The notes beneath the pieces are model-generated. The model saw nothing but the letters and a program-made list of their open reading frames with translations, did no database searches and was not told the origin of the DNA. This document shows positions 8,328 through 34,131 of a stretch of 37,623 nucleotides of DNA, piece by piece (the stretch's first letter is position 1; the number at the start of each line of letters is the position of its first letter). The stretch lies in assembly GCA_002709295.1 (NCBI GenBank), contig PAQL01000002.1:74835-112457 (forward strand). Reading direction: 5' to 3'. A program made the position numbers and the translations under genes. The stretch is from Phycisphaerae bacterium. GTDB taxonomy: Bacteria; Planctomycetota; Phycisphaerae; Phycisphaerales; SM1A02.

Positions 8328-9856
8328 GAATCGCCCCCGTGGAGGTTGCGTGCGACCAGTTCATGGCCGATCTGCCAGACCGGGCCCGCCCCCATGACCA
8401 CCACGAGGTCCTCGTCGCAGAGAACCTCCTCGAGATGTTCGACGATCGCCTGGAACGGATGGGCGTGCATCGCGGTGGTGCCGGTGGCTCGAAGCCGGTC
8501 GACAAGGTCGGAGGCCGAGATTCGTCGACGCTCCTCCTCGCTGTCGCGGACGAAGTGGATCTCCGGAACGATCACCAGATCGGCCCGGCCGAAGGCGCGG
8601 GCGAACTGCTCGAGCAGGAACCGGGTTCGACTGTGCTGGTGGGGCTGGAACACGCAGATCAGACGACGGGGTCGCATCGACGTTCGGATCGCCCGCAGGG
8701 TCGCCTCGCATTCGCTGGGATGATGACCGTAGTCGTCGATGACCACCGCCTTCCCGCCGTCCCTCGTGTCGACGGTGCCCAGACGCTGCATGCGTCTCTC
8801 CACCCCTTCGAAGGTCTCGAGCGCTCCGGCGATCCGGTCCCAGGACGCGCCGAGCCAGTGGGCGAGGATCGCCGCGGCCCCGGCGTTCAGGGCGTTGTGG
8901 TCGCCGGCGAGCATGGTGTCCCAGCCTGCGACGAAGGCGCCGTCCTCCATGATGCCGATTCGTCCCGCGGCGGCGTCGTGCACGATCTGGTGATCGGCCG
9001 ACGGCGCGAAGCCGAAGGTGCGGATTTCGCAATCCAGCCCGCTGCAGATCTCCCGACGGTGTCCACCCTCGTGGGCGATCAGGAGTCGCCCTCCGTCCTT
9101 CGTCGGGGGGAGGAGCCGGGCGAAGTCACGGAAGCTCTCCACGATCTCGTCGATCGATCCGTAGAAGTCGAGGTGGTCCTCCTCGACGTTGTTGATCAGG
9201 GCGATCGTCGGTCGGTGTCGATGGAAGGAACGATTGAACTCGCACGCCTCGGCCACGAAGATGCCGGGACGCGAGTCCTCGCCGGAGCCGAGGTTCGCGG
9301 CGCCTACCCGCCATCCGCCCCCCAGCTGAGGGCATCGGGCTCCCGCGATGTAGCTGGGATCCATGCCGCACTCGACGAGGCAGTGAGCGAGCATCGAGGT
9401 GGTGGTGCTCTTGCCGTGGGTCCCCGCGATCGAGACGCCGGTCCGCCCCTTCATCGCGAGGCCGACCGCCTCCGCGTAGGTCAGGATCCTGAGGTTCGCG
9501 GCCCGGGCCCGTTCCAGGGCGGGGTCGTCGGGTCTGATCGCGGCGCTGCAGACCACGAGTTCGCAGTCCCCCGGGATGTCCTCGGCAAGGGGGTCGTCAC
9601 CGGTGGCGATCCGGATGCCCGAGGATCGCAGGTCGCTGACCACCTCGGACTCCATGGCGTCGGCCCCGCTGGGGACGGCCCCGCGATCCTGCATGATCCT
9701 GGCCAGCCCGCTCATCCCCGATCCGCCGATGCCCAGCAGATGGATGCGGCGACCCCGGAAGGGGTCCGTCCGGTGGCTCCCGGCATCGGCCGGCGTCGGA
9801 TCCGGGTCGGGATCGGGTGAGTCTGGGCGAGTGGGAACCTGACGAGAGGACATCAT
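8324..9856 (-). CDS. murC: UDP-N-acetylmuramate--L-alanine ligase MurC
   Basis: A 510-residue Mur ligase adding L-Ala to UDP-MurNAc. Motifs in order: nucleotide-sugar-binding HLLGIGGSGMSGLA (about 39-52), ATP P-loop GTHGKSTTT (about 144-152), NNVEEDHLDFYGS in the central domain, GDHNALNAGAA, DDYGHHPSE (about 371-379) and FQPHQHSRT in the C-terminal domain. The first 35 residues are a Pro/Asp-rich extension (PDSPDPDPDPTPAD) not usual for MurC. Two adjacent ATGs (9856 and 9853) are possible starts and neither has a strong ribosome-binding site. The frame stays open upstream across the antisense of the regulator gene, but that part is not MurC. It is the first gene of the minus-strand envelope operon, divergent from the regulator with 78 bases between. 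Confidence 0.95.
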   Translation of the reverse strand: MMSSRQVPTRPDSPDPDPDPTPADAGSHRTDPFRGRRIHLLGIGGSGMSGLARIMQDRGAVPSGADAMESEVVSDLRSSGIRIATGDDPLAEDIPGDCELVVCSAAIRPDDPALERARAANLRILTYAEAVGLAMKGRTGVSIAGTHGKSTTTSMLAHCLVECGMDPSYIAGARCPQLGGGWRVGAANLGSGEDSRPGIFVAEACEFNRSFHRHRPTIALINNVEEDHLDFYGSIDEIVESFRDFARLLPPTKDGGRLLIAHEGGHRREICSGLDCEIRTFGFAPSADHQIVHDAAAGRIGIMEDGAFVAGWDTMLAGDHNALNAGAAAILAHWLGASWDRIAGALETFEGVERRMQRLGTVDTRDGGKAVVIDDYGHHPSECEATLRAIRTSMRPRRLICVFQPHQHSRTRFLLEQFARAFGRADLVIVPEIHFVRDSEEERRRISASDLVDRLRATGTTAMHAHPFQAIVEHLEEVLCDEDLVVVMGAGPVWQIGHELVARNLHGGDS

Positions 9857-9934: not shown

Positions 9935-11338
9935 ATGACCGGATCGACCAGTGTGGAAGCAGACGGCACCCCGCCTCGAGCCCAGGTGCTCATCGTGGAC
10001 GACGAGCCCGAGCACGCCGACGTCATGGCCGAGGCCCTGCGCAAGCCGGGCCACGTCTGCACCATCGTCAACGGTCTGGAGTCGGCGCGGGAGGAGTTGA
10101 TCCACGGGGCCTTCGACGTGGTGGTCACCGATCTGGTGATGGAGCACGAGACGGCGGGTCTCGAGGTGCTCTCCATGGTCCAGGAGCAGCAGCCCGACGC
10201 CGCCACGATCCTGGTCACCGCCCACGGTGACGTCCCGACCGCCAAGGCGGCCCTCCAGGGAGGGGCCTACGACTTCATCGAGAAGCCGCTGGATCTGGTG
10301 GTGTTCAGGAATCTCGTCGATCGTGCCGCGGAGACGGTCCTTCTGAGGCACCGGGCCTCGCGTCTGGAGGGGCAGCTCGATGCGGCCTACGGCGTCGAGG
10401 GGATCATCGGCGAGTCCGCGGGGATCCGAGGCGTGATCAATCAGATCCGCAAGGTCGCACCCAGCACGATTCCCGTGCTGGTGACCGGAGAGAGCGGAAC
10501 CGGGAAGGAACTGGTCGCCGCGGCGATCCACCGACTCAGCAAGCGGGCGAAGCAGCGCTACGCGACCTTCAACACTGCGGGGCAGAGCGAGAGTCTTCTG
10601 GAGGATCAGCTCTTCGGTCACGTCCGAGGGGCCTACACCGGCGCGGACCGCGACCGGGAGGGTGTGTTCGAGTACGCCGACGGAGGCACGCTCTTCCTCG
10701 ACGAGATCGGTGACATGCCGCTCTCGATGCAGCCCCGGCTGCTGCGGGTGCTGGAGAGCGGCGAGGTGATCCGACTGGGATCCAACGACCCCAAGCAGGT
10801 CGACGTCCGATTCGTGAGCGCGACCAATCGCGACCTCCGGCAGGCTTCCGAGGACGGGGCCTTCCGGGAGGATCTGTTCTTCAGGATCCGGGGGGTCGAG
10901 ATCAACATTCCACCGCTCCGCGAACGTCGAGAGGACATCCCGCTGCTGGTGAATCATGCGGCGGGGCGGTTCGCGGCGGAGATGGACCAGCCGATCCCGA
11001 CGGTCTCCGAACCGGCGATGCTTCGACTGGTGGGGTACGAATGGCCCGGCAACGTTCGGGAACTCTTCAACGCCGTACATCGCATGGTGATCGCCTGCGA
11101 GAACGATCGAATCGAGCTCCGCGACGTGCCGGAGGAGATCCGGAGCAGCGATGCCGACGATGATTCCGGAAGCCTCGCCGGCGGTTCGCTCGCAGGGGTC
11201 GGGCTCGACCGTCTGGAGAAGGAGGCGATCCGCCAGACCCTGGCCCTCACCGGAGGCAATCGGGAGCAGACCGCCAATCTCCTCGGGATCGGGGAGCGGA
11301 CGCTCTACCGAAAGCTCAAGGAATACGGACTGCGGTAG
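9935..11338 (+). CDS. NtrC-family sigma-54-dependent response regulator
   Basis: A 467-residue three-domain regulator. Residues about 17-130 form a CheY-like receiver ([14 protein letters not shown]; phospho-acceptor Asp66 in [12 protein letters not shown]; Lys in EKPLDL). Residues about 150-390 are an AAA+ sigma-54 activator domain: GESGTGKE (Walker A, near 185), GAYTGAD (the sigma-54 contacting GAFTGA loop with Phe replaced by Tyr, near 232), [11 protein letters not shown] (Walker B), and the R-finger stretch FREDLFFRI. Residues about 425-467 are a Fis-type helix-turn-helix ([25 protein letters not shown]). Such proteins bind enhancers and remodel sigma-54 polymerase by ATP hydrolysis. No cognate kinase lies next to it. 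The near-consensus -24/-12 element upstream of flgI makes a flagellar role (FlgR/FleQ-like) plausible, but the target is not proven. Confidence 0.93.
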
Positions 11339-20474: not shown

Positions 20475-21418
20475 GTCGAGGGATCGCCTTCGAGGCTCCA
20501 CCGGAGGGAGGGATCGAGCGGTTCGATCCCGGCCTCGGGAACCAGGCGACGGGCGAGGCGGTCCATCAGGAGCCTTTCCGCCGCGAGTCGCGCGGACCGT
20601 TCGGCCGCCGCGCGTCCCTGCTCGAAGGTGATCTCGTCCCCGGGGAGTTCCTCGAGGACCTCCATGATCAGCATCCGACCCTCGACGGGGAACGATTCCG
20701 ACAGGGCTCCCGGTTCCAGTTCGAAGAGAGCCCTGCGGAATCCGACCGGCCACGAGGGATCGAGGCGACTGACGGGTGCGAGACGTCCACCGCGCGGGGC
20801 GCTGGCATCGATGCTCGTCTCCACCGCGACCACGGCGAAGTCCTCTCCGGCGAGGATGCGGCGCCGAACGCCTTCGGCGCTGCGGAGATCCCGCAACGCG
20901 ATCACCCGGCAGACCCGTCGGGGCCCGTGCGCCTTGTCCCAGGCGCCTCGGACGACATCCTCGTCGAGCACGACATCGTCGGCGACGAGCAGACGCAGGA
21001 GCGCATTGCGGCGGAGGAGCGAGGCGAAGCGGACGGGGCCGAGGCCTCTGGACCTCCGGAGTTCGGTCAGCAGCAGCTCCGCGCGATCGGGATCACCCGC
21101 CGACAGCGTCTCGACCAGAAGGGCCCGCTCGCGGGCGATCGCGGCCTCGTCGACCTCGATGTCCCGGCGGGCCGCCTCTCGCGCGATCGCTCGATCAAGG
21201 GCACGCTCCCGGACGATGACCGCCCCGGCGGCCTCGAGGAGACCGGCACGGACGTCGTCGAGGTTCATCCGGGTCCGGTCGACGACCGCGATCGGTCGAT
21301 CCGAAGCGATCTCGGTCACGGTCGCGGGGGTGGCGGGAGGCGGGGTCTCGCAGCCGACGATCGCCGGCGAGGATGTGGCCAGCAGCAGCAGAAGTCCCGG
21401 TACGCGTTGATGGATCAT
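20459..21418 (-). CDS. Parvulin-type (PpiC/SurA-like) peptidyl-prolyl isomerase lipoprotein
   Basis: A 319-residue exported protein. The N-terminus MIHQRVPGLLLLLATSSPAIVGC has a lipobox-like IVGC, so it is probably lipid-anchored. After a Pro/Thr linker, residues about 45-165 form an SurA/PrsA-like helical chaperone part (charged helices such as DRAIAREAARRDIEVDEAAIARERALL). Residues about 165-260 fit a parvulin domain: CRVIALRDLRSAEGVRRRILAGEDFAVVAVE, an APRGGRLAPVSR stretch (family GGdLG), FRRALFELEPGALSESFPVEGRMLIMEVLE. Parvulins catalyse proline isomerisation in secreted-protein folding. The ATG overlaps the upstream GT39-like stop as ATGA, indicating one operon. Whether it is catalytically active cannot be seen from sequence. 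Confidence 0.78.
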   Translation of the reverse strand: MIHQRVPGLLLLLATSSPAIVGCETPPPATPATVTEIASDRPIAVVDRTRMNLDDVRAGLLEAAGAVIVRERALDRAIAREAARRDIEVDEAAIARERALLVETLSAGDPDRAELLLTELRRSRGLGPVRFASLLRRNALLRLLVADDVVLDEDVVRGAWDKAHGPRRVCRVIALRDLRSAEGVRRRILAGEDFAVVAVETSIDASAPRGGRLAPVSRLDPSWPVGFRRALFELEPGALSESFPVEGRMLIMEVLEELPGDEITFEQGRAAAERSARLAAERLLMDRLARRLVPEAGIEPLDPSLRWSLEGDPSTQLRR

Positions 21419-23577
21419 GGTGTGGAAGGCTCCTCGATCGCGAGGAGGATCCCATCATCGGGGAGGCGGTGCACGATCCGTGTTCCATCGACCTCCGAGA
21501 GGGCTCGGATGCGCTCGGGCGTGATCGTCGGATCGAGCCAGCCGCTTCTCGACCACACCTCGAGCATGGTGGGGGAGACGATCAGGTGGGTGGTGCCCCG
21601 TTCCCGCAGTCGGTCGATCGCGGCTTGTGCGGCGGTCCCGGCTCCGGTGCCTTCGGGCAGCTTCGCCCAGGTCCGCTCGACCGGGCCGCGAGTCCACACC
21701 GTGGTGTATTCGAGTCGGCCCTCACCATCCTCCGGCCAGGGAAGGTGCCAGGGGTCGGAGACGCCCATCATCACGACCCTCGATCCGGGGGGAAGTTCTC
21801 CCAGCACGAACGCGAGGCCGGCATCGCGACGAAGCTCCTCGGCGGTCGCGGGATCCGCGGTCCGGATCATCTCCGCCACCAGACTGCCGTCGAAGGCTCC
21901 ACGGGCATCGATCGCCCGAGCCGGTCGCCCGTCACGCTCGGTCACGTGGATCGCGAGGGGACCGATCGTCACGCCCCACGCGAGGATGACGATCACGATC
22001 CGACCGGTCCGCGTCGAGGACGAGGAGGCCAGGGCCGCGCCCACCAGTGCGGCCAGCAGGGGGGCAGCGGGCAGCAGGAATCTCGCCTTCCCGTGGGTGC
22101 CGAAGGTCCAGGCGACGAGGATCGTCACGAGGGCGGTGGCCATCGCGATCACCACCCGACGGCGGTGCTTCCGGTCGACCAGCAGCCAGCCCAGGCATCC
22201 GAACCCGATGATCGGGAGCCACAGCCACTGTGGTCGACGGGATTCACCGGCGGGGAGTTCCCCGAGGAGGTCGTCGAACAGGAACTCTCCGAGAAGGCTT
22301 CCGAGGTTCGTGGCGATCGACGGTTCCCTTCGATGGGCGGCCGCGAATCGAGCCATCTGCTCCTCGGTCCAGTCGCCTCGGCCGAAGAGTCCGGCGGCGA
22401 ATGGAAAGACCGGGTTGCCGGTCCATGCGAGGTTTCGCAGCAGCCAGGGCAGGCAGGCCGCGGCACCGACGATCGCGGTCGCAAGGGCGATGGCCGGCCA
22501 CCGTCGGGGGGGGAACAGGACCATCGCGGCCGCGCCGAGGGGGATGACCGCGAGGATGCCGGAGGAGGCCTTGGCCATCACCGCGGCGCCGAGCAGCAGT
22601 CCGACGAGGGCGCCGATCGCGGGGTCGGGAAGCGTGGTGGATCCGACCGACCCTCGAACCAGCCAGTTCGCGGCCGCCGCGGTCAGGAGCATCACCGCGG
22701 CCTCGTCGTAGGCCAGCGAGCCGGTGACCACGACCCAGGGGGTCGAGAGGAGGGCGATCATGCCGATGGCCCGCGCGGACCGCGAGTCCTCGCCGAGCAC
22801 CGCGGTCACCAGATCGGCGGTCGCGAGTGCGGCGATGATCGTCATGCCCGCCACCAGCAGCTGACTGGACACCCCCGTGGAGGCGGGATCTCCGGTCAGC
22901 GACATCAGGTGGAGGAAGGCGGCGGACACCGCTCCAGGCAGTGATCCGTAGGCGTTGTGAGGGGTGTCCACGATCCCACCCGCGTACCACCACTCGCGCG
23001 GAAGCTGCAGGTGGTAGCTGAGGGCGTCGTATCCACCGAACTCGCTGGCCCAGAGCCAGCCGGGGGTCGAGGCGGCCGCGGTGAGCAGGACGCCGATCGG
23101 CACGGCAAGGGCGAGTCCCGGCATCAGCGGACCGGTCCGGTCGCAGGTGGCCCTGAGCGCCCGGACCAGGACGATCAGCCCCGGAATGCCCGCCGCCAGC
23201 ACCGTCGTCCAGGCCACCAGTCCCCGATCCCGACCCAGCAGACCGAGGTCTCCAAGAGTCGCATCGAGGATCAGCAGCACGGCGATGCCGAGTGGCCACG
23301 CGATCCGAATCCCGCCGCATGGTTCGGCATCGAGCCGGCCCCCGGAGCGGGGCAGGAGTCGGATCAGTCCGGTTCCCAGCCCCAGAGCGGCCAGAAGCCA
23401 CGCCATGGCGGGCCAGCCTTCCAGCAGGAGGATGCGGAGAATCGCCGGTCCGCGAGCATTCTCGCCGGGGGCGACGAGGGTACCGAGCAGCAGGATCACT
23501 CCTCCGGCAATCGCGGCTCCGAGGATCGGGCCGGCCGGGATGGAGGAGCGGTTGGGGGCTGGATCCGCCTTCGCCAT
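21415..23577 (-). CDS. GT39/PMT-like polytopic glycosyltransferase
   Basis: A 720-residue membrane protein with about 12 or more hydrophobic segments over residues 15-560 and a hydrophilic, probably periplasmic C-terminal domain (about 590-720). The loop ASEFGGYDALSYHLQLPREWWYAGG resembles the first periplasmic loop of ArnT/PMT/RgtA-type lipid-linked sugar transferases, where an Asp (here in GYDALSYH) is catalytic. Later segments such as LLGAAVMAKASSGILAVIPLGAAAMVL and HGKARFLLPAAPLLAALVGAAL are typical of GT-C membrane cores. These enzymes transfer sugars from polyprenyl-phosphate donors; the acceptor is unknown. It diverges from flgI with an 85-base gap that carries the sigma-54 element on the other strand. 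Confidence 0.75.
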   Translation of the reverse strand: MAKADPAPNRSSIPAGPILGAAIAGGVILLLGTLVAPGENARGPAILRILLLEGWPAMAWLLAALGLGTGLIRLLPRSGGRLDAEPCGGIRIAWPLGIAVLLILDATLGDLGLLGRDRGLVAWTTVLAAGIPGLIVLVRALRATCDRTGPLMPGLALAVPIGVLLTAAASTPGWLWASEFGGYDALSYHLQLPREWWYAGGIVDTPHNAYGSLPGAVSAAFLHLMSLTGDPASTGVSSQLLVAGMTIIAALATADLVTAVLGEDSRSARAIGMIALLSTPWVVVTGSLAYDEAAVMLLTAAAANWLVRGSVGSTTLPDPAIGALVGLLLGAAVMAKASSGILAVIPLGAAAMVLFPPRRWPAIALATAIVGAAACLPWLLRNLAWTGNPVFPFAAGLFGRGDWTEEQMARFAAAHRREPSIATNLGSLLGEFLFDDLLGELPAGESRRPQWLWLPIIGFGCLGWLLVDRKHRRRVVIAMATALVTILVAWTFGTHGKARFLLPAAPLLAALVGAALASSSSTRTGRIVIVILAWGVTIGPLAIHVTERDGRPARAIDARGAFDGSLVAEMIRTADPATAEELRRDAGLAFVLGELPPGSRVVMMGVSDPWHLPWPEDGEGRLEYTTVWTRGPVERTWAKLPEGTGAGTAAQAAIDRLRERGTTHLIVSPTMLEVWSRSGWLDPTITPERIRALSEVDGTRIVHRLPDDGILLAIEEPSTP

Positions 23578-23616: not shown

Positions 23617-23631
23617 TGGCACGCGGCGTGC
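23617..23631 (+). promoter_or_regulatory. Sigma-54 (-24/-12) promoter of the flagellar cluster
   Basis: TGGCACG-CGGC-GTGC matches the sigma-54 consensus TGGCACG-N4-TTGC at 10 of 11 defined bases, with the invariant GG at 23618-23619 and GC at 23630-23631 spaced by exactly ten bases. Transcription would start near 23643, giving a leader of about 20 bases before the flgI ATG at 23663. The window also encodes a sigma-54 activator (9935-11338). Confidence 0.75.
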
Positions 23632-23662
23632 CTCTGTCAGGGGTCTCCCACGGAGGATCCGT

Positions 23663-24829
23663 ATGAAGACGCACTTTCTGCGCATTCGAAGCATTGTTCC
23701 ACTCATGATCGGCGCATGGACCGCGCTGGTCGGTCTCCTTCTCGTCAATCCGGCCCACGCCCAGGACGTCCGTCTCCAGGATCTCCTGCAGTCGGAGTTC
23801 GAGCGACCGTTCACCATCACCGGATGGGGTCTGGTGACCGGGCTCCAGGGCACCGGCGACACCGGCGGCAACTACGCCGCAGCGCTCAACTACATCGAGC
23901 GGATGAAGCGAGCCGGGTTCGTCGACTCGGGAACCCTTCCCCAGGCGATTCTCGACGAGGGCTCGATCGCCGTCGTCCAGGTCTCGGCCACGGTCCCCAA
24001 CCTCTTCGGTTCGGGCCAGTCCTACGAGTGCCGGGTCAACGCCCTCGGCGGTGGAGCCGAGTCGCTCGCGGGTGGAACCCTGCTGATCACGCCGCTGCGT
24101 CGATCCGACGCCAGCATCGACGACACCATCGAGAGCATCGATCTCATCGACGTCATCGGGTTCGCCGAAGGGGTGCTCGAGGTCGAGCCGGGGTCCCCGA
24201 CCCGGGGTCGCATCTCGCTCGGTGCCCGACTGGCCACAACCTCCGCTCCAATCTGGGAGGAGGTCCGAGGCTGGAGGTCCATCACCTTCGACGTGAAGAA
24301 TCCCGCCCATCGGACCATGATGAATCTCGGACGACTCGTCGACGCGGTCAACGAGGAGATGCTCGAGGACGGCTTCGTGGATCTCGCCACGGTGATCAGC
24401 GGCGGGCAGATCAAGGTGATGCTTCCGGAGTCCGAGACCGATTCATTCCGCTTCGCGGGACGGGTGCTCGGCATGTCCGTGGACTTCCGCAACGTCGAGC
24501 CTCCGGCGGAGATCCGCTGGAACGAGTCCGCGGGAGTCCTGGTCATCACCGGCAACACCACGATCCGCGACGCGACGGTGAGCATCGACGGCTTCTCGAT
24601 CCAGAAGATCACGCCGGAGCGGGTCTTCACCCGCGAGAGCCCGAAGATCGAGATGGAGCCGTTCATCGCGATGACCGGGCGGGAGGAGCTCTCCATCAGC
24701 CTGCACACCCTCAAGAAGCAGCTCGACATGCTGAAGGTCCCGGTGCGATCGCAGGCCCGGGTGCTGCAGGAGCTCTGCAACACCGGCCAGTGCAACGCCA
24801 TGTTCATCAGAGCGGGGGCGGACGGATGA
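23663..24829 (+). CDS. flgI: Flagellar P-ring protein FlgI
   Basis: A 388-residue protein of usual length, forming the P-ring bushing in the peptidoglycan layer around the rod. The Sec signal peptide ends ...LLLVNPAHA|QD. Conserved features follow: RLQDLLQ, the signature GWGLVTGLQGTGDTGG, NVAV-type AIVQVSATVP strand, FRVNALG-like CRVNALGGGAESLAGGTLLITPL, and the C-terminal GLDM-like L.KKQLDML and QELCNTGQC end. The start follows CACGGAGGA at 23649-23657, six bases before the ATG. The gene begins a plus-strand cluster driven by the sigma-54 element and overlaps flgJ by ATGA. Its presence implies an outer membrane plus a peptidoglycan wall; flgA and flgH are not in the window. Confidence 0.95.
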   Translation: MKTHFLRIRSIVPLMIGAWTALVGLLLVNPAHAQDVRLQDLLQSEFERPFTITGWGLVTGLQGTGDTGGNYAAALNYIERMKRAGFVDSGTLPQAILDEGSIAVVQVSATVPNLFGSGQSYECRVNALGGGAESLAGGTLLITPLRRSDASIDDTIESIDLIDVIGFAEGVLEVEPGSPTRGRISLGARLATTSAPIWEEVRGWRSITFDVKNPAHRTMMNLGRLVDAVNEEMLEDGFVDLATVISGGQIKVMLPESETDSFRFAGRVLGMSVDFRNVEPPAEIRWNESAGVLVITGNTTIRDATVSIDGFSIQKITPERVFTRESPKIEMEPFIAMTGREELSISLHTLKKQLDMLKVPVRSQARVLQELCNTGQCNAMFIRAGADG

Positions 24830-25329
24830 TGATCGACACTCCGACCAGTCCGATCCTCGTCGATCGGCAGTTGAACATGCCCGGCATGGAACCGGGACGC
24901 GTCGTGGACGCCTCGAGCCGCCGGTTCGAGGGTCCGGGGGGCGTCGAATCCGCCTCGCCCGACCAGGCCGCCTTCCTCAAGCAGATGGCCGGACGGCTCG
25001 GGGCCGATCCCACCGACGCCCGAGCCGGGACCCCGGAGGGGCTCGCCCGCCTGGGCGCAGAGCGGATGGTCTCCACCGCCCTGATCGAACCACTGGTTCG
25101 AGAGGCTCGGGAATCCTCGGCCTCGACCGGGATGTTCGCCCCCGGTCCGGGTGAGAAGCGCTTCGGCCATCTGATGGATCGAAGCATCGCCGACTCCATC
25201 GTGGCCTCGCCGGGATTCGGCGGGGTGGTCTCGATCGAACGAAGGCTGCTCGAGCGGATCAACATCTCCCTCGGCATCCACGAGTCTTCCGGCGCGCAGG
25301 TGTCCGGATCAACGGAGGAACGTTCATGA
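24826..25329 (+). CDS. FlgJ-type rod-binding protein (single domain)
   Basis: A 167-residue protein resembling only the N-terminal rod-binding half of FlgJ. Residues about 85-155 (RMVSTALIEPLVREARESSASTG to FGHLMDRSIADSIVASPGFGGVVSIERRLLERI) match the pattern of the rod-binding domain (F....L..M.KSMRE...GLFG...E....MLDQ..A..IA...G.GLA..I). The muramidase half of enterobacterial FlgJ is absent, as in many non-enteric bacteria where a separate enzyme does the job. Residues 1-80 are Pro/Gly-rich and probably disordered. The ATG overlaps the flgI stop as ATGA. It likely acts as a rod cap or scaffold during rod assembly. Confidence 0.82.
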   Translation: MMIDTPTSPILVDRQLNMPGMEPGRVVDASSRRFEGPGGVESASPDQAAFLKQMAGRLGADPTDARAGTPEGLARLGAERMVSTALIEPLVREARESSASTGMFAPGPGEKRFGHLMDRSIADSIVASPGFGGVVSIERRLLERINISLGIHESSGAQVSGSTEERS

Positions 25330-25865
25330 CCGCCACGGCATCGACACGACCGAGACCATCGGCGGCGACCCTCGCGGCGCTGCGTGGTCTGCAGGAGATC
25401 CTCGACACGCAGGCCGAGGGATATCGCAGGCTGCTCGTCACCATCGACCGGCAGCGTGACGCGATCCGCAACGCCGAGCTGGCCTCGGTGCCCGAGATCG
25501 CGGAAGTGCAGCAGAAGATCGTGGGCCGTCTCCAGATGCTCGACGAGCGACGCGAGGCGGCCGGCCGGGAGCTCGCGACGGCGATGGGCATCGATCCCGA
25601 TTCGAGCGTCTCGACCATCGCCGCGGTGCTTCCCATCGCGGCCGCGGACCGACTGGAGGTCCGGGCTGCGGAGCTTCGGGAGCTCGTGGAACGATCACGT
25701 CGCGAACAGTCCCTGCTGAAGTCGGCGGGGGAGGCGCTTGCCAGACACATGGCAGGCATCGTGCAGAGCGTCACTGGGGCGCTCTCCGGTACCGGGGTCT
25801 ACGGACGGCGAGGTCGGCTTCGCGAGGGTGCTCCCCTCGTCGCCGGCATCGACCTGACCAGCTGA
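25326..25865 (+). CDS. flgN: FlgN-like export chaperone for hook-associated proteins
   Basis: A 179-residue, almost fully helical protein, size and position of FlgN, the chaperone that escorts FlgK and FlgL to the export apparatus. Residues about 15-145 form the helical core with the FlgN-like spacing (LAALRGLQEILDTQAEGYRRLLVTIDRQRDAI then LVERSRREQSLLKSAGEALARHM), and the C-terminus (GALSGTGVYGRRGRLRE) resembles the conserved Gly/Tyr-rich tail 'YgpdG'. Homology at sequence level is weak, but flgK and flgL follow immediately. The ATG overlaps the flgJ stop as ATGA and has AACGGAGGA 7 bases upstream. Confidence 0.8.
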   Translation: MTATASTRPRPSAATLAALRGLQEILDTQAEGYRRLLVTIDRQRDAIRNAELASVPEIAEVQQKIVGRLQMLDERREAAGRELATAMGIDPDSSVSTIAAVLPIAAADRLEVRAAELRELVERSRREQSLLKSAGEALARHMAGIVQSVTGALSGTGVYGRRGRLREGAPLVAGIDLTS

Positions 25866-25875
25866 GGAGCTCACC

Positions 25876-27582
25876 ATGGGACTCAACGGCGCCCTTCAAA
25901 TCGGCCGATCGGCCATGCTCACCAGCCAGGCCGCCATCAGCGTGGCCGGCAACAACATGGCGAACGCCGCGACTCCGGGATATCACCGGCAGATCGCGAA
26001 TCTCTCCCCGAGTCGATCCGATGCGATCGGACGGAACCAGTTCGTCGGCACCGGTGTCTCGCTGGTCAGCGTGAACCGTGCTATCGACTACGCGCTGCAG
26101 TCGCGGCTCCGTGACGCGATCAGCGACGAGAACGCGGCGGGGGTCGACGAGCGATTCCTCTCCGCGGTCGAGACGATCCAGAACGAACTCTCCGATGACG
26201 ATCTGTCCTCGAGACTCTCCGCGTTCTTCAACGCCTTCAGCGAGCTGGCCAACAACCCTCTGGACGACGCGGTCCGGACCGTGGTGCTCCAGCAGGGCGT
26301 CAGCGTCGCGGATCACGTCAACATGATCCGCGACGAGTACGTCACGCTCCGAAACGAGGTCGACCGGTCCCTCGGCACCTCGGTGGAACGCGTCGACGGT
26401 CTCCTCGACGAGATCGCGAACATCAACCAGCAGATCGCGACCGCGGAGGGCGGCCAGGGCGGCACCACCGGCGGGGCCAACAGCCTCCGGGATCGTCGCG
26501 ACCAGCTGATCGACGAACTCGCGGGCTACCTCGACGTGACCACGATCGACCAGCCCAACGGCGTGGTCGACGTCCTCGTGGGATCCACCCCCCTGGTGCT
26601 CGCCGGCGAGAGCCGGGGTCTCGAGCTCCGACGGCAGAGCGGTCCCGACGGGGTCGAGGTCACCGTCCGGGTGGGTGACGACGGACGCATCGTGGACATC
26701 CAGTCCGGCTCCATCGGGGCCCTGGTGCGGCAGCGGAACGAGACGGTGGATCCCGCGATCGCCGCCATCGACGACTTCGCCGGTCAGCTCGCGTTCGAGG
26801 TCAACCGCGTGCATTCCCAGGGACAGGGGACCTCGCTTCGCACCGGCTTCACCGGGAGCATCCGTCTCGAGGATCCGGCCGCGAACCTCAACGGCAGCTA
26901 CTCGGGTCTGCCCTGGCCGATCGAGAATGGTTCGTTCCAGATCCACGTGGTCGACCCTGCCAGCGGCAACCGCACCACTCACCAGGTCGTGGTCGATCCC
27001 GCCAACGACAGTCTTCAGGACGTCGTCGACCGGATCAACGTCGAGATCGGCATCCCCGACGTGACCGCCTCGGTCACCGCCGACGGCGAGTTCAGCCTGA
27101 CCGCGGCGAGCGGCCGGGAGGTCGCCTTCAGCGACGACACCAGCGGCTTCCTCGCCGGTGTGGGGGTCAACGGCTTCTTCACCGGCACCGATGCGACCGA
27201 TCTCGCGGTCGATCGGACGCTGCTCGACGATCCGTCGCTCCTCTCCACCTCCGACGACTTCACGCCGGGAGGCAACGGTGCGGCGATGCAGATGGTCGCC
27301 CTCGAGGAGAAGCCGATCGACGCCTTCAACGGCCGCAGTCTCCGCGAGAAGTGGCAGTCCTCGGTCAACGAGCTCGCGGTGCGGACCAGCGCCGCCCGGA
27401 CCAGTCTGGAATCGAGCCGGCTGGTGCGTGCCAACCTCGATGCCCAGAGCCAGTCGGTCAGCGGTGTGAGCATCGACGAGGAGGCGATCGACCTCATGAC
27501 CCTGCAGCGGCAGTTCCAGGCCGCCGCCCGTTTCATCACCGTGATCGACGAGGCGATGGAGACCCTCCTCAGCATCGCCTGA
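25876..27582 (+). CDS. flgK: Flagellar hook-associated protein FlgK (HAP1)
   Basis: A 568-residue junction protein between hook and filament. The N-terminus MGLNGALQIGRSAMLTSQAAISVAGNNMANAATPGYHRQ is the typical rod/hook-family start (Sxxxxl.aqQaaldvtgnNiANanTpGY.Rq), and the C-terminus (SGVSIDEEAIDLMTLQRQFQAAARFITVIDEAMETLLSI) is the matching coiled-coil end (GVnlDEE..nLi.fQqaYqAaaRvi...demld.Ll). The middle is a domain rich in Asp/Gly with low similarity. The ATG has GAGGAG about 8 bases upstream, ten bases after the flgN stop. It lies 19 bases ahead of flgL. Confidence 0.95.
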   Translation: MGLNGALQIGRSAMLTSQAAISVAGNNMANAATPGYHRQIANLSPSRSDAIGRNQFVGTGVSLVSVNRAIDYALQSRLRDAISDENAAGVDERFLSAVETIQNELSDDDLSSRLSAFFNAFSELANNPLDDAVRTVVLQQGVSVADHVNMIRDEYVTLRNEVDRSLGTSVERVDGLLDEIANINQQIATAEGGQGGTTGGANSLRDRRDQLIDELAGYLDVTTIDQPNGVVDVLVGSTPLVLAGESRGLELRRQSGPDGVEVTVRVGDDGRIVDIQSGSIGALVRQRNETVDPAIAAIDDFAGQLAFEVNRVHSQGQGTSLRTGFTGSIRLEDPAANLNGSYSGLPWPIENGSFQIHVVDPASGNRTTHQVVVDPANDSLQDVVDRINVEIGIPDVTASVTADGEFSLTAASGREVAFSDDTSGFLAGVGVNGFFTGTDATDLAVDRTLLDDPSLLSTSDDFTPGGNGAAMQMVALEEKPIDAFNGRSLREKWQSSVNELAVRTSAARTSLESSRLVRANLDAQSQSVSGVSIDEEAIDLMTLQRQFQAAARFITVIDEAMETLLSIA

Positions 27583-27601: not shown

Positions 27602-29590
27602 ATGAGTGCCATCTCTTCAGTCCTCGGCCGCGTGCCGAACCTGCTCGCATCGCAGACGGTCCTGGGTTCCATCACCCGGAGCAACACCGCGCTGCTCGAG
27701 CTGCAGGTCAAGCTGGCCTCCGGCCGCGAGATCCTCCGTGCGAGCGAGGATCCCGTGGGGGCGGGGACCATCGCGGTCCTCGACGACGTCCTCGAGCGGC
27801 GGGACCAGCGGCTGCGGAACCTCTCCGAGGCGGGCGCGGTGCTGGGCACCCTCGACTCGGCCCTTGGAGACGTCAACGACCTTCTTCTGGAGGCCAAGGG
27901 AGTGGGGCTCTCGCAGATCGGCGTCGGCAGCGATGCCGAGACCCGACGGAACCAGTCGCTGGTGATCGACTCGATCCTCCAGAGCCTGCAGGGCATCGGC
28001 AATCGCGAGCATCGCGACCTCCACCTCTTCGGGGGGAGCGCGGTCGGCACCACGCCGTTCGAGGGTCTGATGGGCGGCATCCGCTACGCCGGATCGGGCG
28101 ACGGCCTGGTCAACGACATCGGGCTCGGGGCCTCGACGCCCATGACCATGTCGGGTGAACGGGCCTTCGGCGCGGTCAGCGCCCGGCTCGAGGGGGATCG
28201 GGATCTGAATCCCGACGCCACCGCGGCCACCAGACTCTCGGATCTCGATGGCGCCCGGGGACTGGGCATCGCTCCGGGGACGATCACCGTGACCGTCGAC
28301 GGCACTCCGATCGACGTCGACCTCTCGGATGCCGAGACGGTCGAGGATGTCCGCAGCCGGGTCGAGAATGCGATCCGCACCGTCGATCCCGCCGCGGTGG
28401 TGGATCTGGATCCCGCCACCGGGGATCGATTCCGGATCACGCCCTCGGCGGGGGTCACGGTCGCGATCACCGAGGCCGGGGACACCACCACCGCCTCCGA
28501 TCTCGGTCTGGATGGAACCTACCCCGGTGGCGTCGCCACCGCCGGTTCCGATCTCCAGCCCCGACTCACCTGGACCACCGACATCGCCTCGCTGGACGGC
28601 GTCTCGGTGCCGATGGGAACCATCCGCATCGGCAACGCGGGCCAGTTCCGCGACCTGGATCTCTCCGGAGTCGAGACGCTTCAGGACCTCAGGAACCGCG
28701 TCGATGAGCTCGATCTCGGGGTGCGGGTGGAGATCGCCGACTCGGGCGATCGGATCCAGTTCCGAAACGAGCTGTCCGGCGGATCGATGTCCATCGGCGA
28801 GGTCGGCGGTGGCGGCACCGCCACCGAACTCGGGATCCGCTCGTTCTCCGGAGCGACCAGACTCGAGGACTTCAACGACGGCCGGGGCGTCGAGATCCTC
28901 ACCGGCGGGGTGGATCCGGTCAACGGGACTCCCGACCCCTCCCGGGACGTGGACTTCTCGATCGAGCTGCACGACGGCCGCACCTTCGATGTCGACCTCG
29001 CCGGATCCGAGACGGTCCAGGACGTGGTCGATGCCATCTCCGCGGCGGCGACCGCCGCCGGCGTGGGGGTGCCCGGCGAGTTCCAGGTGGGTCTGGCGGC
29101 CGACGGGAACGGCCTCGCCCTCGAGGATCTCACCGCCGGGGGCTCCGACTTCGCGGTGGTGGCCCGCAACAACAGCGGGGCGGCCTCGGATCTGGGCATC
29201 CTCGGGTCCACCGACGGCGCAACGATTGCCGGTGAGGACCGCGCAACCGTGGCCGTGGACGGCGTCTTCGCCCATCTGATCGCCCTTCGCGACGCCCTGC
29301 TGGCGGATGACGACTCTGGCATCGCCTTTGCAACCCAGAAGCTGGATGCGGACATCGCCCGCGCCGCCGAGGCTCGTGCCGAGGCCGGCGTGAGGGCACA
29401 ACGGGTCGACGCGGCGTTGACTCGTGAGGAGGACCTTCGAGTGCAGGATCTCTCGCTCAAGTCGACGATTCAGGACCTGGACGTCACCAGTGCCGCGATC
29501 CGCTTCAGTCAGCTGCAGCAGCAGCTGCAGGCCGGCCTCAGCACCGCCGGTCGCATCACGAATCTCACGTTGCTGGATTTTCTCCGGTAG
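27602..29590 (+). CDS. flgL: Flagellar hook-associated protein FlgL, enlarged
   Basis: A 662-residue HAP3, about twice the usual 300-400. N-terminal residues 1-170 match flagellin/FlgL coiled coils (LLASQTVLGSITRSNTALLELQVKLASGREILRASEDPVGAGTI) and the C-terminal 100 form the second coiled coil (DADIARAAEARAEAGVRAQRVDAALTREEDLRVQDLSLKSTIQDLDVTSAAIRFSQLQQQLQAGL). Between them (about 220-545) three roughly 100-residue modules repeat a beta-helix-like unit containing DLSDAETVEDVRSRV, DLSGVETLQDLRNRV and DLAGSETVQDVVDAI, similar to flagellin hook-IN motifs. FlgL links FlgK to the filament. The extra modules would project from the filament base. Confidence 0.9.
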   Translation: MSAISSVLGRVPNLLASQTVLGSITRSNTALLELQVKLASGREILRASEDPVGAGTIAVLDDVLERRDQRLRNLSEAGAVLGTLDSALGDVNDLLLEAKGVGLSQIGVGSDAETRRNQSLVIDSILQSLQGIGNREHRDLHLFGGSAVGTTPFEGLMGGIRYAGSGDGLVNDIGLGASTPMTMSGERAFGAVSARLEGDRDLNPDATAATRLSDLDGARGLGIAPGTITVTVDGTPIDVDLSDAETVEDVRSRVENAIRTVDPAAVVDLDPATGDRFRITPSAGVTVAITEAGDTTTASDLGLDGTYPGGVATAGSDLQPRLTWTTDIASLDGVSVPMGTIRIGNAGQFRDLDLSGVETLQDLRNRVDELDLGVRVEIADSGDRIQFRNELSGGSMSIGEVGGGGTATELGIRSFSGATRLEDFNDGRGVEILTGGVDPVNGTPDPSRDVDFSIELHDGRTFDVDLAGSETVQDVVDAISAAATAAGVGVPGEFQVGLAADGNGLALEDLTAGGSDFAVVARNNSGAASDLGILGSTDGATIAGEDRATVAVDGVFAHLIALRDALLADDDSGIAFATQKLDADIARAAEARAEAGVRAQRVDAALTREEDLRVQDLSLKSTIQDLDVTSAAIRFSQLQQQLQAGLSTAGRITNLTLLDFLR

Positions 29591-29730: not shown

Positions 29731-30180
29731 ATGAACCTCGAGACCACTCGTTTCGGAAACGTCGAAATCGACGATGATCGCGTCATCAACTTCTCTTCGG
29801 GCCTCCTCGGCTTCTCGAGCTACAGCAAGTTCGTGCTGCTGCAGCCCGACGAGCAGGGGGTGTTCTTCTGGCTGCAGTCGACCGAGGCTCCGGATCTCGC
29901 CTTCGTGGTGACCGATCCCGCCCTCTGGATCACCGACTACCAGGCGAACATCCGGAAGGACCAGATGGAGGAGCTCGGCATGAACGAGCTCGCTGATGCA
30001 CAGGTCCTCGTCATCGTGAACAAGCGTGACGATTCGATCACATCGAACCTGCAGGGTCCGCTGGTGATCAACGTCCAGGGACGCATCGGCATGCAGCTGG
30101 TCCTGGCGGACAAGCGTTGGAGCACCCGCCACGAACTGCTTCAGGTCGGTGAGACGACGGCGAAGGCCGCGTCGGCCTGA
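29731..30180 (+). CDS. fliW: Flagellar assembly factor FliW
   Basis: A 149-residue protein of normal length. Signature residues are clear: TTRFGNVEIDDDRVINFSSGLLGFSSYSKFVLL (family FG.iei.e..vi.FP.GllGFe...rFvll), FFWLQSTEAPDLAFVVTDP (typical F.wLQS...P.laFvv.dP), and MNELADAQVLVIVNKRD followed by SNLQGPLVINVQGRIGMQLVL (typical t.NL.aPivin). In Bacillus, FliW binds flagellin and, when flagellin is exported, FliW is freed to bind and inhibit CsrA. The gene is directly followed by csrA and two flagellins, the order expected for that switch. The GGAG 7 bases upstream of the ATG serves as ribosome-binding site, within a GGAG-repeat-rich leader. Confidence 0.95.
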   Translation: MNLETTRFGNVEIDDDRVINFSSGLLGFSSYSKFVLLQPDEQGVFFWLQSTEAPDLAFVVTDPALWITDYQANIRKDQMEELGMNELADAQVLVIVNKRDDSITSNLQGPLVINVQGRIGMQLVLADKRWSTRHELLQVGETTAKAASA

Positions 30181-30294: not shown

Positions 30295-30597
30295 ATGCTG
30301 GTGCTTTCTCGACAGCGCGACGAGACGATCATGATCGGTGACGACATCGAACTCACGATCGTCGACATCCGGGGAGACAAGGTGAGGGTGGGCATTTCGG
30401 CGCCGAACAGCGTCTCCGTCCACCGCAAGGAGGTCTACGAGGCGATTCGCGTGGAGAACGAGCAGGCCGCCGCATTCCGCGGCGACCTGGACACATTCCA
30501 CTCCGGGGCGTTCCCGAGAGTGGCAAGCGGCGGGACGGTCCCGCCGGCGGCGGCCCAGCTGGCCGCTCGTACCGAGACTAGGCGGGTGACCGCCTGA
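30295..30597 (+). CDS. csrA: Carbon storage regulator CsrA with extended C-terminus
   Basis: A 100-residue RNA-binding regulator. Residues 1-58 are a standard Csr[52 protein letters not shown], including the N-terminal strand residues and the Arg in VHRKEVY that contact GGA-containing RNA. The remaining 40 residues ([17 protein letters not shown] and onward) are an extension beyond the usual 60-70-residue size; in Bacillus CsrA a C-terminal tail contributes to FliW binding. The ATG has AAGGAG 7 bases upstream; an upstream in-frame ATG exists but would add non-homologous residues. The preceding 30277-30287 contains a CACGGAAGGAG block, so autoregulation is possible. Confidence 0.95.
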
Positions 30598-30679: not shown

Positions 30680-32140
30680 ATGGCTAGGATCAACACGAAC
30701 GTACCTTCGCTCATCGCCCAGAACAATCTCGGGCGGACCAATGGTGACCTTTCGGTGCGGCTGCAACGCCTCTCCACCGGTCTTCGCATCAATCGCGGCG
30801 CCGACGACCCGGCCGGACTCATCGTCTCGGAGCGACTCCGCTCCGAGATGAAGGGGATCGACCAGGCGATCGACAACTCCGAGCGAGCCAGCTCGGTGAT
30901 CGCCACTGCCGAGGGATACCTCGCAGAGGTCGCCGACCTGCTCAATTCGGTCAAGGGACTCGTGGTCGAGGCCGCCAACACCGGCGGTGTCAGCCAGGAG
31001 GAGATCGAGGCGAACCAGCTTCAGATCGACTCCGCGATCGACTCCATCACCCGGATCTCCAACACCGCCAGCTTCGCCGGGCTCCAGCTGCTCAACGGCA
31101 ACCTGGAGTACACCACCAGCGGGGTCACCGCCGGCGAGATCGCCGGGGTCCAGGTCGATGGCGCCCAGTTCGGGTCGACCGGCGACATCGCGGTCGATGT
31201 CGAGGTGGTCGAGGCCGCCGAGACCGCCGGGCTCTTCATCGACGGTTCGACCGGCACCCCCGGTGAACTCGACGATCCCATCACCGTGGAGATCGCCGGT
31301 CCTCTCGGGGTCCAGTCGGTCTCCTTCGCCTCCGGCACCAGTCTGGACTCGGTCGCCACGGCGATCAACAGTCTGACCCAGACCACGGGGGTCAGTGCCT
31401 CCTTCGTGACCAGCGGCATCCAGGTGAACTCGACCACCTACGGTTCGGACAGCTTCGTCTCGGTCAGGCAGATCGGGAGCAGCTCCACGGACTTCAACGT
31501 GCTCGACGAGGTGGGTGGCACCGCGACCCAGCGGGACGAGGGCGTCGACGTGACCGCGGTCATCAACGGCGTGCTCGCGGTCGGCGACGGTCTCGACGTC
31601 TCCCTCAAGAGCCCGGGACTGTCGGTGGCGCTCGATCTCACCGAGGCGTTCGCGACCGTCGGCGGCAGCACCAGCAGCTTCAACATCACCGGTGGGGGAG
31701 CGAGCTTCCAGCTCGGACCGAGCATCTCCGCCACCCAGTCGGTGGGCGTCGGCATCCAGTCGGTGGCGGCGACCCGCATCGGGGGCACCGACATCGAGGG
31801 AGCCCGATACTTCCTCGACAGCATCTCCGGTGGCAAGGTCAACTCGCTGACCAGCGGCAACTACGCCGAGGCGAGCGAGATCCTCGACAACGCCATCACC
31901 GAGATCTCCGTCATGCGGGGGCGTCTGGGAGCGTTCGAACGGAACACCCTCCAGACCAACGCCCGCAGCCTCCAGATCGGGCTCGAGAACATCACGGCCA
32001 GCGAGTCGAAGATCCGCGACACGGACTTCGCCGCCGAGACCGCGAAGCTCACCCGGGCCCAGATCCTGAACCAGGCCGGCACCTCGGTTCTGGCGACCGC
32101 GAACGCGTCCGCCCAGAACGTCCTGGCCCTGCTCCAGTAG
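30680..32140 (+). CDS. fliC: Flagellin 1
   Basis: A 486-residue filament protein. The N-terminal D0/D1 helices (MARINTNVPSLIAQNNLGRTNGDLSVRLQRLSTGLRINRGADDPAGLIVSERL, to ANQLQIDSAIDSITRISNTASFAGLQLLNG) and C-terminal D0/D1 helices (ENITASESKIRDTDFAAETAKLTRAQILNQAGTSVLATANASAQNVLALLQ) are typical. The 290-residue middle is beta-rich, Gly/Ser/Thr-rich and surface exposed, with flagellin-IN-type DSVATAINSL motifs. The D1 stretch that TLR5 senses reads LLNSVKGLV, lacking the Arg-Val-Arg of enterobacterial flagellin. CACGGAGGA precedes the ATG. A strong hairpin follows the stop, so this gene is probably the end of the main transcript. Confidence 0.95.
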   Translation: MARINTNVPSLIAQNNLGRTNGDLSVRLQRLSTGLRINRGADDPAGLIVSERLRSEMKGIDQAIDNSERASSVIATAEGYLAEVADLLNSVKGLVVEAANTGGVSQEEIEANQLQIDSAIDSITRISNTASFAGLQLLNGNLEYTTSGVTAGEIAGVQVDGAQFGSTGDIAVDVEVVEAAETAGLFIDGSTGTPGELDDPITVEIAGPLGVQSVSFASGTSLDSVATAINSLTQTTGVSASFVTSGIQVNSTTYGSDSFVSVRQIGSSSTDFNVLDEVGGTATQRDEGVDVTAVINGVLAVGDGLDVSLKSPGLSVALDLTEAFATVGGSTSSFNITGGGASFQLGPSISATQSVGVGIQSVAATRIGGTDIEGARYFLDSISGGKVNSLTSGNYAEASEILDNAITEISVMRGRLGAFERNTLQTNARSLQIGLENITASESKIRDTDFAAETAKLTRAQILNQAGTSVLATANASAQNVLALLQ

Positions 32141-32528: not shown

Positions 32529-32548
32529 GCCCCGCACGGTGCGGGGGC
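32529..32548 (+). promoter_or_regulatory. Leader hairpin of flagellin 2
   Basis: A GC-rich inverted repeat (32529-32536 with 32540-32548, one bulged G, loop CGG) lies about 100 bases upstream of the flagellin 2 start. Downstream the leader carries CAAGGACG at 32565-32572 and several other GGA triplets. It may be a structural part of a regulated leader or a promoter-side binding site. Confidence 0.4.
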
Positions 32549-32633
32549 GTCAATGTGGATCGGCCAAGGACGCCTACTTCAGGGGGGCCGGTCGGAATTC
32601 GGGTGGTTCGGGCACTTCCAACCCGGACCTGTT

Positions 32634-32642
32634 CACGGAGGA
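32634..32642 (+). promoter_or_regulatory. Ribosome-binding block / CsrA-like site of flagellin 2
   Basis: The same CACGGAGGA as before flgI and flagellin 1 ends seven bases before the GTG start. CAAGGACG at 32565-32572 in the same leader resembles a second CsrA site. Confidence 0.5.
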
Positions 32643-32649
32643 CACCACT

Positions 32650-34131
32650 GTGAGTCGTATCAACACCAACGTCGCGAGTCTCATCGCCCAGCGAACCCTC
32701 GGGTCGCAGAACATGGGACTCAACAAGAGCCTTCAGCGGCTCTCCACCGGTCTCGCCATCAATCGTGGCGCAGACGATCCCGCCGGCCTCATCGCCAGCG
32801 AGAACCTTCGCAGCGAGAAGGCGGCCATCAACGCCGCGATCACCAACGCCGAACGGGCCGAGCAGGTCGTGAACGTCGCCGAAGGCGGCCTCCAGGAGGT
32901 CTCGAACCTGCTGGTCGAACTGCAGTCGCTCGTCAGCTCCACCGCCAACGAGGCGGGCGTCTCCGACGAGGAGAAGGACGCGAACCAGCTTCAGATCGAC
33001 TCGATCCTGCAGACGATCGACCGAATCGCCAACGCGACCGAGTTCCAGGGCGAGAAGCTCCTCAACGGCAACTTCGACTACCAGACCAGCGGTGGAAACC
33101 TCGGCGCCGAGCTTTCGGACGTCAAGGTCAACTCCGCCAAGCTCGCCAGCGATGGTACGTCGATGAACGTCAGTGTCGACGTCACGGCCTCCGCGACGAC
33201 CGGTGCTGCTGCAATCCTTGGCAACAAGGACAGCGCCACCGCCGGCCGCTTCGACAACGACGGGAACAGCTACACGATCGAGGTGACCGGCGAAGAAGGC
33301 ACCCAGCAGTTCACCTTCGCCGACAACACCGCGATGTCGGCGGTTCGTGATGCGATCAATTCCTTCAGCGACCAGCTCGGTGTCACTGCGGCCCTCAGTG
33401 CCAACGGCGACGACGTCGTCATCAGCTCTGCGGGCTATGGCAGCGACTCCTTCGTCCGAGTTCGCGAGCTCAATGACGGCGGTTCGGGTGTGGACCTCGT
33501 CGGTGCTGCCGGCACGTTCAGTGCAAGTGACGACTACTCCGACAACGGTACCGACGCGACCGTGCTCATCAACGGCACCCAGGCCACTACGGACGGCCTG
33601 ACCGCCCGCGTCGCGAGCGCTGGTTTCGACGTCGAGATCACGCTCGATGCCGCCACCGGCAACACCGCCGGCAGCTGGAGTTTCGACATCGATGGCGGTG
33701 GTGCGAACTTCAACCTCGCCCCCGACGTGAGCCTCGCCAGCAAGGTGTCGCTCGGCATCGAAACCGTCACCACCGGCAGCCTCGGCTCCAGCGCGTCGGG
33801 CTTCCTCGCCGACCTCAAGTCGGGCGGTGACGCCAACGTCAAGAACGGCGATCTGTCCCAGGCCCAGTCGGTCATCGACGACGCCATCAAGCAGGTCTCC
33901 AGCCTCCGCGGCCGACTCGGCGCGTTCCAGAAGAACGTCGTCGGCTCGACCATCAGCTCGCTGGGCATCGCCCTCGAGAACACCGCGGCGGCCGAGAGCC
34001 AGATCCGTGACACGGACTTCGCCGCCGAGACCGCGGCCCTGACCCGTGGCCAGATCCTGCAGCAGGCGGCCATCCAGTCGCTCTCGCTGGCCAACTCCGG
34101 CCCGCAGGCCGTCCTCTCGCTCCTCGGCTGA
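32650..34131 (+). CDS. Flagellin 2
   Basis: A 493-residue paralogue of flagellin 1, starting with GTG. N-terminal helices (SRINTNVASLIAQRTLGSQNMGLNKSLQRLSTGLAINRGADDPAGLIASENL to ANQLQIDSILQTIDRIANATEFQGEKLLNG) and C-terminal helices (LENTAAAESQIRDTDFAAETAALTRGQILQQAAIQSLSLANSGPQAVLSLLG) are intact. The middle aligns loosely with that of flagellin 1 (AMSAVRDAINSF against SLDSVATAINSL; YGSDSFVRVREL against YGSDSFVSVRQI), so the genes arose by duplication. Codon use in the middle is slightly less GC-biased. It has its own 500-base upstream region and a strong terminator downstream. Whether it makes a second filament segment or is differently expressed cannot be read from sequence. Confidence 0.95.
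   Translation: MSRINTNVASLIAQRTLGSQNMGLNKSLQRLSTGLAINRGADDPAGLIASENLRSEKAAINAAITNAERAEQVVNVAEGGLQEVSNLLVELQSLVSSTANEAGVSDEEKDANQLQIDSILQTIDRIANATEFQGEKLLNGNFDYQTSGGNLGAELSDVKVNSAKLASDGTSMNVSVDVTASATTGAAAILGNKDSATAGRFDNDGNSYTIEVTGEEGTQQFTFADNTAMSAVRDAINSFSDQLGVTAALSANGDDVVISSAGYGSDSFVRVRELNDGGSGVDLVGAAGTFSASDDYSDNGTDATVLINGTQATTDGLTARVASAGFDVEITLDAATGNTAGSWSFDIDGGGANFNLAPDVSLASKVSLGIETVTTGSLGSSASGFLADLKSGGDANVKNGDLSQAQSVIDDAIKQVSSLRGRLGAFQKNVVGSTISSLGIALENTAAAESQIRDTDFAAETAALTRGQILQQAAIQSLSLANSGPQAVLSLLG

Follow-up and report, generated by a model that had tools for sequence, protein, structure and literature searches.

What switches on the flagellar genes that begin with flgI in this member of the Phycisphaerae is the question raised by a short element lying just before that gene. 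The window, by which is meant the whole stretch of 37,623 nucleotides that was analysed, carries TGGCACGCGGCGTGC on the + strand at 23617-23631, which the initial annotation took for a sigma-54 promoter heading the late flagellar cluster, with an NtrC-class activator encoded 12 kb away as its suggested FlgR/FleQ-like regulator. The answer depends on whether the element is a promoter at all and on which activator would serve it. The best explanation of the whole, to which a probability of about 0.8 was assigned, is that flgI-flgL are transcribed from a sigma-54 promoter opened by a FlgR-like regulator encoded on contig C29, which would itself be phosphorylated by a kinase.

The element and the flgI operon

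A strict GG-N10-GC pattern can be read directly from the sequence, with GG at 23618-23619, GC at 23630-23631 and a spacer of ten bases, as in the -24/-12 consensus. The element agrees with TGGCACG-N4-TTGC at 10 of 11 letters and with TGGCAC-N5-TTGCW (W being A or T), likewise of 11 letters, at nine. The ATG of flgI at 23663 lies 32 positions past 23631, leaving 31 bases in between. The consensus letters, the exact spacing and the distance to the ATG claimed by the initial annotation all held when the sequence was reread.

The genes from flgI to flgL, including the flgJ-like frame, flgN and flgK, overlap or stand 10-19 bases apart (Table 1); gaps of 140, 114, 82 and 398 bases precede fliW, csrA, the first flagellin and the second flagellin, respectively. 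The site is best explained, as far as gene order can tell, as the head of a flgI-(flgJ-like)-flgN-flgK-flgL operon. The earlier description of a late flagellar cluster suits this tight run, but "late" is a loose term, and fliW, csrA and the flagellins come only after the gaps.

Table 1. Features of the window discussed in the text.
Feature	Positions	Strand	Evidence or remark
Sigma-54 activator 1	9935..11338	+	Receiver, sigma-54 AAA+, Fis HTH; GAYTGA loop; near-universal in family
Divergent 720-aa ORF	21415..23577	-	Without Pfam match; start 40 bases upstream of element
Predicted sigma-54 (-24/-12) promoter element of flgI operon	23617..23631	+	TGGCACGCGGCGTGC; sequence and conservation in 30/30 family genomes with strong FlgI
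flgI, flagellar P-ring protein, first operon gene	23663..24829	+	Pfam PF02119, E 4.1e-32
167-aa ORF in flgJ position	24826..25329	+	Without Pfam or NCBIfam match; named by position only
flgN, hook-junction chaperone	25326..25865	+	Pfam PF05130
flgK, hook-associated protein	25876..27582	+	Pfam FlgK_D1
flgL-like hook-filament junction protein, end of tight run	27602..29590	+	Flagellin N/C slightly below Pfam cut-offs; position after flgK
fliW	29731..30180	+	Pfam PF02623; 140-base gap before it, operon membership not shown
csrA	30295..30597	+	Pfam PF02599
Flagellin	30680..32140	+	Pfam flagellin N and C
Second flagellin	32539..34131	+	Flagellin domain from residue 41 of open frame; start uncertain

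Conservation before flgI

Taken by itself, the match is weak evidence, because sites with one mismatch number 108 genome-wide, fewer than the 273 found for the same pattern read backwards, and the window shows no excess (81 matches with at most three mismatches against 75.8 expected). These counts are what a chance match to a degenerate consensus would lead one to expect, and it is the position and conservation of the site before flgI within the family that make it more than chance.

When 201 genomes of the order were searched for FlgI, 186 yielded a match at E <= 0.001. Sixty-seven of the genomes searched belong to the family of the window (f1), and all 30 of those with a strong FlgI (E <= 1e-14) were used; their flgI stretches consist of nine loci from the initial FlgI search and 21 further stretches. 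Start codons in the relatives were set by rule (the Shine-Dalgarno-like motif nearest the expected start) and not by annotation. A strict GG/GC site matching at least eight of 11 letters was found within 100 nt of the flgI start in every one of the 30 genomes and in all 16 genera, and one matching at least nine in 26; 300 dinucleotide shuffles gave means of 1.6 (maximum 7) and 0.34 (maximum 4), respectively. The GG/GC pair is thus kept in relatives, a check that the initial annotation had named, and the chance reading is hardly credible, since the site recurs before flgI in 30/30 genomes against a shuffle maximum of seven.

Letters outside the score point the same way. The published sigma-54 consensus, as quoted in a part of PMC3352281, is YTGGCACG-N4-TTGCWNN; 28 of the 30 family sites have Y before TGG, 25 have G after CAC and 23 have T after the -12 element. 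The distance from element to ATG is identical to the window's in four genomes of the nearest genus. Ten-base blocks over the element are 75-83% identical to the window, whereas those in the 100 bases before it reach 18-45%. The footprint has a sharp edge on this upstream side only, because identity stays fairly high (55-90%) in the leader that runs on to the ATG.

A matrix was built from the family flgI sites, the window site included. The flgI site is the top-scoring site of the upstream stretch in all 30 family genomes, although f1 offers no independent test of a matrix made from its own sites; leave-one-genus-out scores of the family sites range from 3.7 to 22.2. In 234 kb of the genome's own sequence the flgI site ranks first with this matrix, at 20.9, the runner-up scoring 17.8.

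The gene arrangement differs between families. In f1, 26 of the 30 genomes have a divergent gene upstream of flgI and the other four have no called gene there; none was called on the same strand. In f3-f6 a same-strand gene stands directly upstream in 18 of 20 loci, and a matrix score of at least 9 within 120 nt of the FlgI match was reached in only one of the 20 (L047, where the upstream gene is uncalled); L048 is an exception, as the near upstream gene is absent and yet there is no site. Family f2 is mixed, with a same-strand upstream gene in 15 of 20 loci and a site of matrix score at least 9 in nine of 20. By the simple score (at least eight of 11 letters within 200 nt) sites occur in seven of 20 f2 loci and three of 20 f3-f6 loci. 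It was also observed that 25 f1 genomes lacking a strong FlgI match FlgI weakly (E roughly 1e-4 to 1e-8), and that the window's own genome (G000) holds a second FlgI match; these weak matches possibly represent a FlgI-like family.

The bases around the element (23617-23632, + strand, TGGCACGCGGCGTGCC) include GGCACGC-G-GCGTGCC, a perfect 7-1-7 palindrome, which raises the alternative that the element is an operator or an RNA hairpin. The window has all seven symmetric pairs, and the four nearest genomes have six of them. However, the mean for all 30 family sites is 3.8 of 7 pairs, equal to the column-shuffled mean of 3.81, and it falls to 3.3 when the five near genomes are left out. This reading was rejected because the family symmetry does not exceed the shuffled level; the -24/-12 pattern is kept in the family and the symmetry is not, and an operator or hairpin is very improbable. 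Two points tell against the preferred reading: the divergent 720-aa ORF starts only 40 bases upstream of the element, and no activator-binding dyad above shuffles was found in the 30 stretches upstream of flgI, a search that a degenerate or distant site would escape.

Other candidate sites in the genome

The condensed family pattern with at most one mismatch occurs at 53 places in the genome, compared with 117 for the pattern read backwards. There are two perfect matches, namely the flgI site and a minus-strand site at C37:47330-47347 (L073:6330-6347). The latter falls within the 5' end of a ComEC-like open frame, a label read from the translation without a family search, about 60 bases before an internal ATG. 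Gene context was set for 30 of the 53 sites, and among these one other was intergenic and at most 200 bases before a called gene. This minus-strand sigma-54-like site (C12:200984-201001, L289; matrix score 20.2) lies 39 bases before the gene of a repeat protein that, on a reading of its sequence, is EF-hand/dockerin-like, and it may possibly mark a second member of the regulon.

No strong sigma-54 site was found before flagellar operons other than flgI in the stretches of the genome that were scanned, and flgB has a weak one only (8/11, matrix score -1.4), which counts against a broad circuit. Good sites precede flgB in some other lineages (18.4 in L088 and 14.8 in L105). The flgB scan covered 30 loci, of which four gave no flgB start by the rule and L107 was left out, its regulator stop not being placed. 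Sites lying within the flgB and flgL coding sequences and recurring in relatives were left uncounted, as they look protein-constrained.

Two sigma-54 activators

The genome encodes rpoN on contig C29 with the activator-interacting, core-binding and DNA-binding domains all present, as the initial annotation had asked to be checked. Two full sigma-54 activators were found, scoring 221-238 bits; three further matches reach only 20-29 bits. The predicted sigma-54 promoter at the head of a flagellar operon stands in a genome that holds both the sigma factor and activators for it, and the remaining issue is which of the two activators would act there.

Activator 1, the one in the window, could drive the same promoter, alone or together with the FlgR-like protein. 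It is one of only two full activators found, and several relatives (e.g. G054, G114, G102 and G199) carry its orthologue on the flgI contig, about 9-22 kb from that gene. In the window its ORF ends 12.3 kb before the element. Nevertheless, its conserved role does not appear to be flagellar. FlhA was found in 46 of the 67 f1 genomes and rpoN in 65, including all 21 that lack FlhA; an activator 1 orthologue (at least 66% identity) is present in 65 of the 67, the remaining two genomes being 88-89% complete, and in each of the 21 genomes without FlhA, so that its distribution is not that of a flagellar gene. It is transcribed divergently from a neighbouring Mur ligase gene, outside any flagellar operon, and no kinase was recognised among the window neighbours searched. 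(A called + strand gene at 8339-9820 is a caller artefact opposite the Mur ligase gene, and its matches were disregarded.) Activator 1 would seem to have a role apart from flagella, which allows for a flagellar side role; it is probably not the flagellar activator of flgI, and control of the promoter by it is unlikely. As a separate observation, GAYTGA replaces GAFTGA in seven of 30 activator 1 orthologues, the window's among them.

Activator 2, on C29, has a receiver, an AAA+ domain with a GAFTGA loop and a Fis HTH. Directly before it lies a HisKA-HATPase kinase gene, and after it follow flgB, flgC, fliE, a fliF match, fliG, fliH, fliI, fliJ, a fliK-like gene, flgD and flgE (flgB was named by weak NCBIfam matches below cut-off). 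Relatives of the kinase, FlgB, FlgC and FliE stand beside activator 2 at 30 of 30 loci in 30 genomes (24 from f1 and six from other families), so kinase and regulator belong together to a flagellar cluster, as in pairs of the FlgSR/FleSR/FlrBC type. The sigma-54-contacting loop expected of that type is GAFTGA in 29 of the 30 and GSFTGA in one. The kinase has no obvious transmembrane segment (best 19-residue hydropathy 1.5). Upstream of the pair and of a FlgN-like gene (a weak match, below cut-off), C29 also encodes an 888-aa protein without Pfam or NCBIfam match (L068:8294-10960).

Distribution follows the flagellum. Activator 2 (E < 1e-150, at least 59% identity; next matches at 7e-103) was found in 33 of the 67 f1 genomes, that is, in 33 of the 46 with FlhA and none of the 21 without, an occurrence with flagella and not without them as in the FlgSR/FleSR/FlrBC type. 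All 30 genomes with a strong FlgI carry it; three others carry it without a strong FlgI (G135, G191 and G193). The Fisher values of 5e-16 and 1e-8 were computed without regard to the relatedness of the genomes, which confounds the co-occurrence. A further 13 genomes (G008, G138, G023, G120, G171, G189, G165, G066, G078, G093, G144, G150 and G156) have FlhA with neither activator 2 nor a strong FlgI, and may possibly have reduced flagella, another export system or divergent parts. Together with gene order, this distribution suggests activator 2 as the natural partner for the promoter of flgI.

The name FlgR-like is used for activator 2 because it stays below the curated cut-offs for both Campylobacter FlgR (293 of 750 bits) and Caulobacter FlbD (350 of 750 bits), and it is thus neither of these proper. 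Regulator and kinase alike fell below the curated cut-offs of the NCBIfam models shown, the other models reaching at best 25 of 120. Searched against named genomes, the regulator gave, among the matches listed (L180-L259), three Phycisphaerae loci at 58-62% identity (L180-L182), followed by matches in other phyla at no more than 51%; the label Phycisphaerae-type is used because these nearest named loci, among the matches listed, are Phycisphaerae assemblies.

FleQ has its own type of N-terminal domain instead of a receiver. A FleQ/FlrA master regulator was considered and rejected, as both activators carry Response_reg and the FleQ-type domain is absent among the Pfam matches. The genome also encodes FlhF, an FlhG-like MinD/ParA ATPase and, after flhA, a FliA/WhiG sigma. 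A FliA/WhiG-type sigma gene on C26 (L077:7606-8646) carries, by its called start, an N-terminal extension of about 100 residues ahead of the sigma domain.

The initial annotation therefore needs correction in its regulator. Its element is real, conserved and at the head of a flagellar operon, whereas the link drawn to the window activator is not supported, given the presence of that activator in nearly all f1 genomes, those without FlhA included. The proposal of a controller lacking a neighbouring kinase gives way to a better candidate, which has a histidine kinase beside it and flgB-flgC-fliE-fliF-fliG after it. Of the FlgR/FleQ-like circuit proposed for a planctomycete-type genome, the FlgR-like part is supported, through the pair in the C29 flagellar cluster, and the FleQ type and the window activator as its regulator are not.

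A predicted flagellar circuit

In the preferred reading, control of flgI by the C29 pair, sigma-54 RNA polymerase would bind the flgI element as a closed complex, which the NtrC-type FlgR-like regulator would open once phosphorylated by the histidine kinase whose gene directly precedes its own. By analogy with FlgSR and FlrBC/FleSR, the kinase may signal that MS ring, rotor and export apparatus have been assembled, and would in this way time the production of P-ring and hook-junction proteins. The observed basis consists of the element, its conservation, its position at the operon head, rpoN, the gene order of kinase and regulator, and the co-occurrence with flagella; from these we infer promoter activity, the choice of activator, phosphotransfer and, by analogy, the assembly signal. 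Judged on genome sequence, a FlgS/FlgR-type (FlrBC, FleSR) circuit in a Phycisphaerae-type planctomycete is the best reading.

Circuits of this kind have been described elsewhere. According to the relevant part of PMC7064773, FlgSR, FlrBC and FleSR of Campylobacter, Vibrio and Pseudomonas depend on MS ring, rotor and export apparatus for switching on the sigma-54 promoters that serve rod, ring and hook genes; these bacteria carry FlhF and FlhG, and the Vibrio targets of sigma-54 and the two-component system include flgFGHIJ and flgKL. As described there, FlgSR of Campylobacter jejuni and Helicobacter pylori resembles the present case in having a kinase without an obvious membrane segment, an NtrC-type regulator, sigma-54 promoters of ring and hook genes, and FlhF with an FlhG-like protein; it differs in that here the kinase and regulator genes directly precede flgB-flgC-fliE-fliF-fliG. 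Unlike Campylobacter FlgR itself, the regulator here scores far below the curated cut-off, and an assembly signal would be assigned to it by analogy. FlrBC of Vibrio and FleSR of Pseudomonas likewise combine a two-component pair with sigma-54 for rod, ring and hook operons, but in those species a FleQ/FlrA master regulator stands above the pair, whereas the two full activators here both have receivers.

Nearer relatives have been touched on in print. In the freshwater Phycisphaerae 'Nemodlikiaceae' a FlrB-FlrC pair was annotated beside the flagellar apparatus and linked to surface affinity (PMC6461901, in part); these bacteria belong to the same class as the genome studied here, and no promoter is treated in that portion. 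Computed sigma-54 regulons, in the portions of PMC12316311 and PMC3162934 that concern them, contain motility genes in many classes, P-ring COG1706 included, and mention Planctomycetia; those portions do not report a Phycisphaerae flagellar circuit, the one naming of Phycisphaerae in PMC12316311 being for a chaperone cluster. This promoter appeared in no title or abstract found in the literature on planctomycete or Phycisphaerae sigma-54, flagella and two-component control.

Implications for the Phycisphaerae

The conserved element supplies evidence at the level of the promoter for a flagellar circuit of sigma-54 and a two-component pair in a class of planctomycetes for which only the annotated FlrB-FlrC pair was found in print (PMC6461901, in part). 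The kind of control is already known, and the Phycisphaerae case is judged solid rather than surprising. It also changes which regulator should be tested: the window neighbour is near-universal with a non-flagellar distribution, and the likely activator is encoded with basal-body genes. The two sigma-54 branches can be separated because the family has flagellated and non-flagellated members, nearly all of which keep the housekeeping activator.

It may tentatively be suggested, with the odds slightly against it, that Phycisphaerae-type planctomycetes share the assembly-checkpoint logic of polar-flagellated proteobacteria. By this analogy a soluble kinase-regulator pair, encoded just before the fliF and fliG whose products it would sense, would release the P-ring and hook-junction genes via sigma-54 without a FleQ-type master. 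If so, work on proteobacteria would have underestimated the age or the mobility of the checkpoint, and this lineage, with perhaps no more than two full sigma-54 activators (one for housekeeping, one for flagella), would offer a natural example of it in minimal form.
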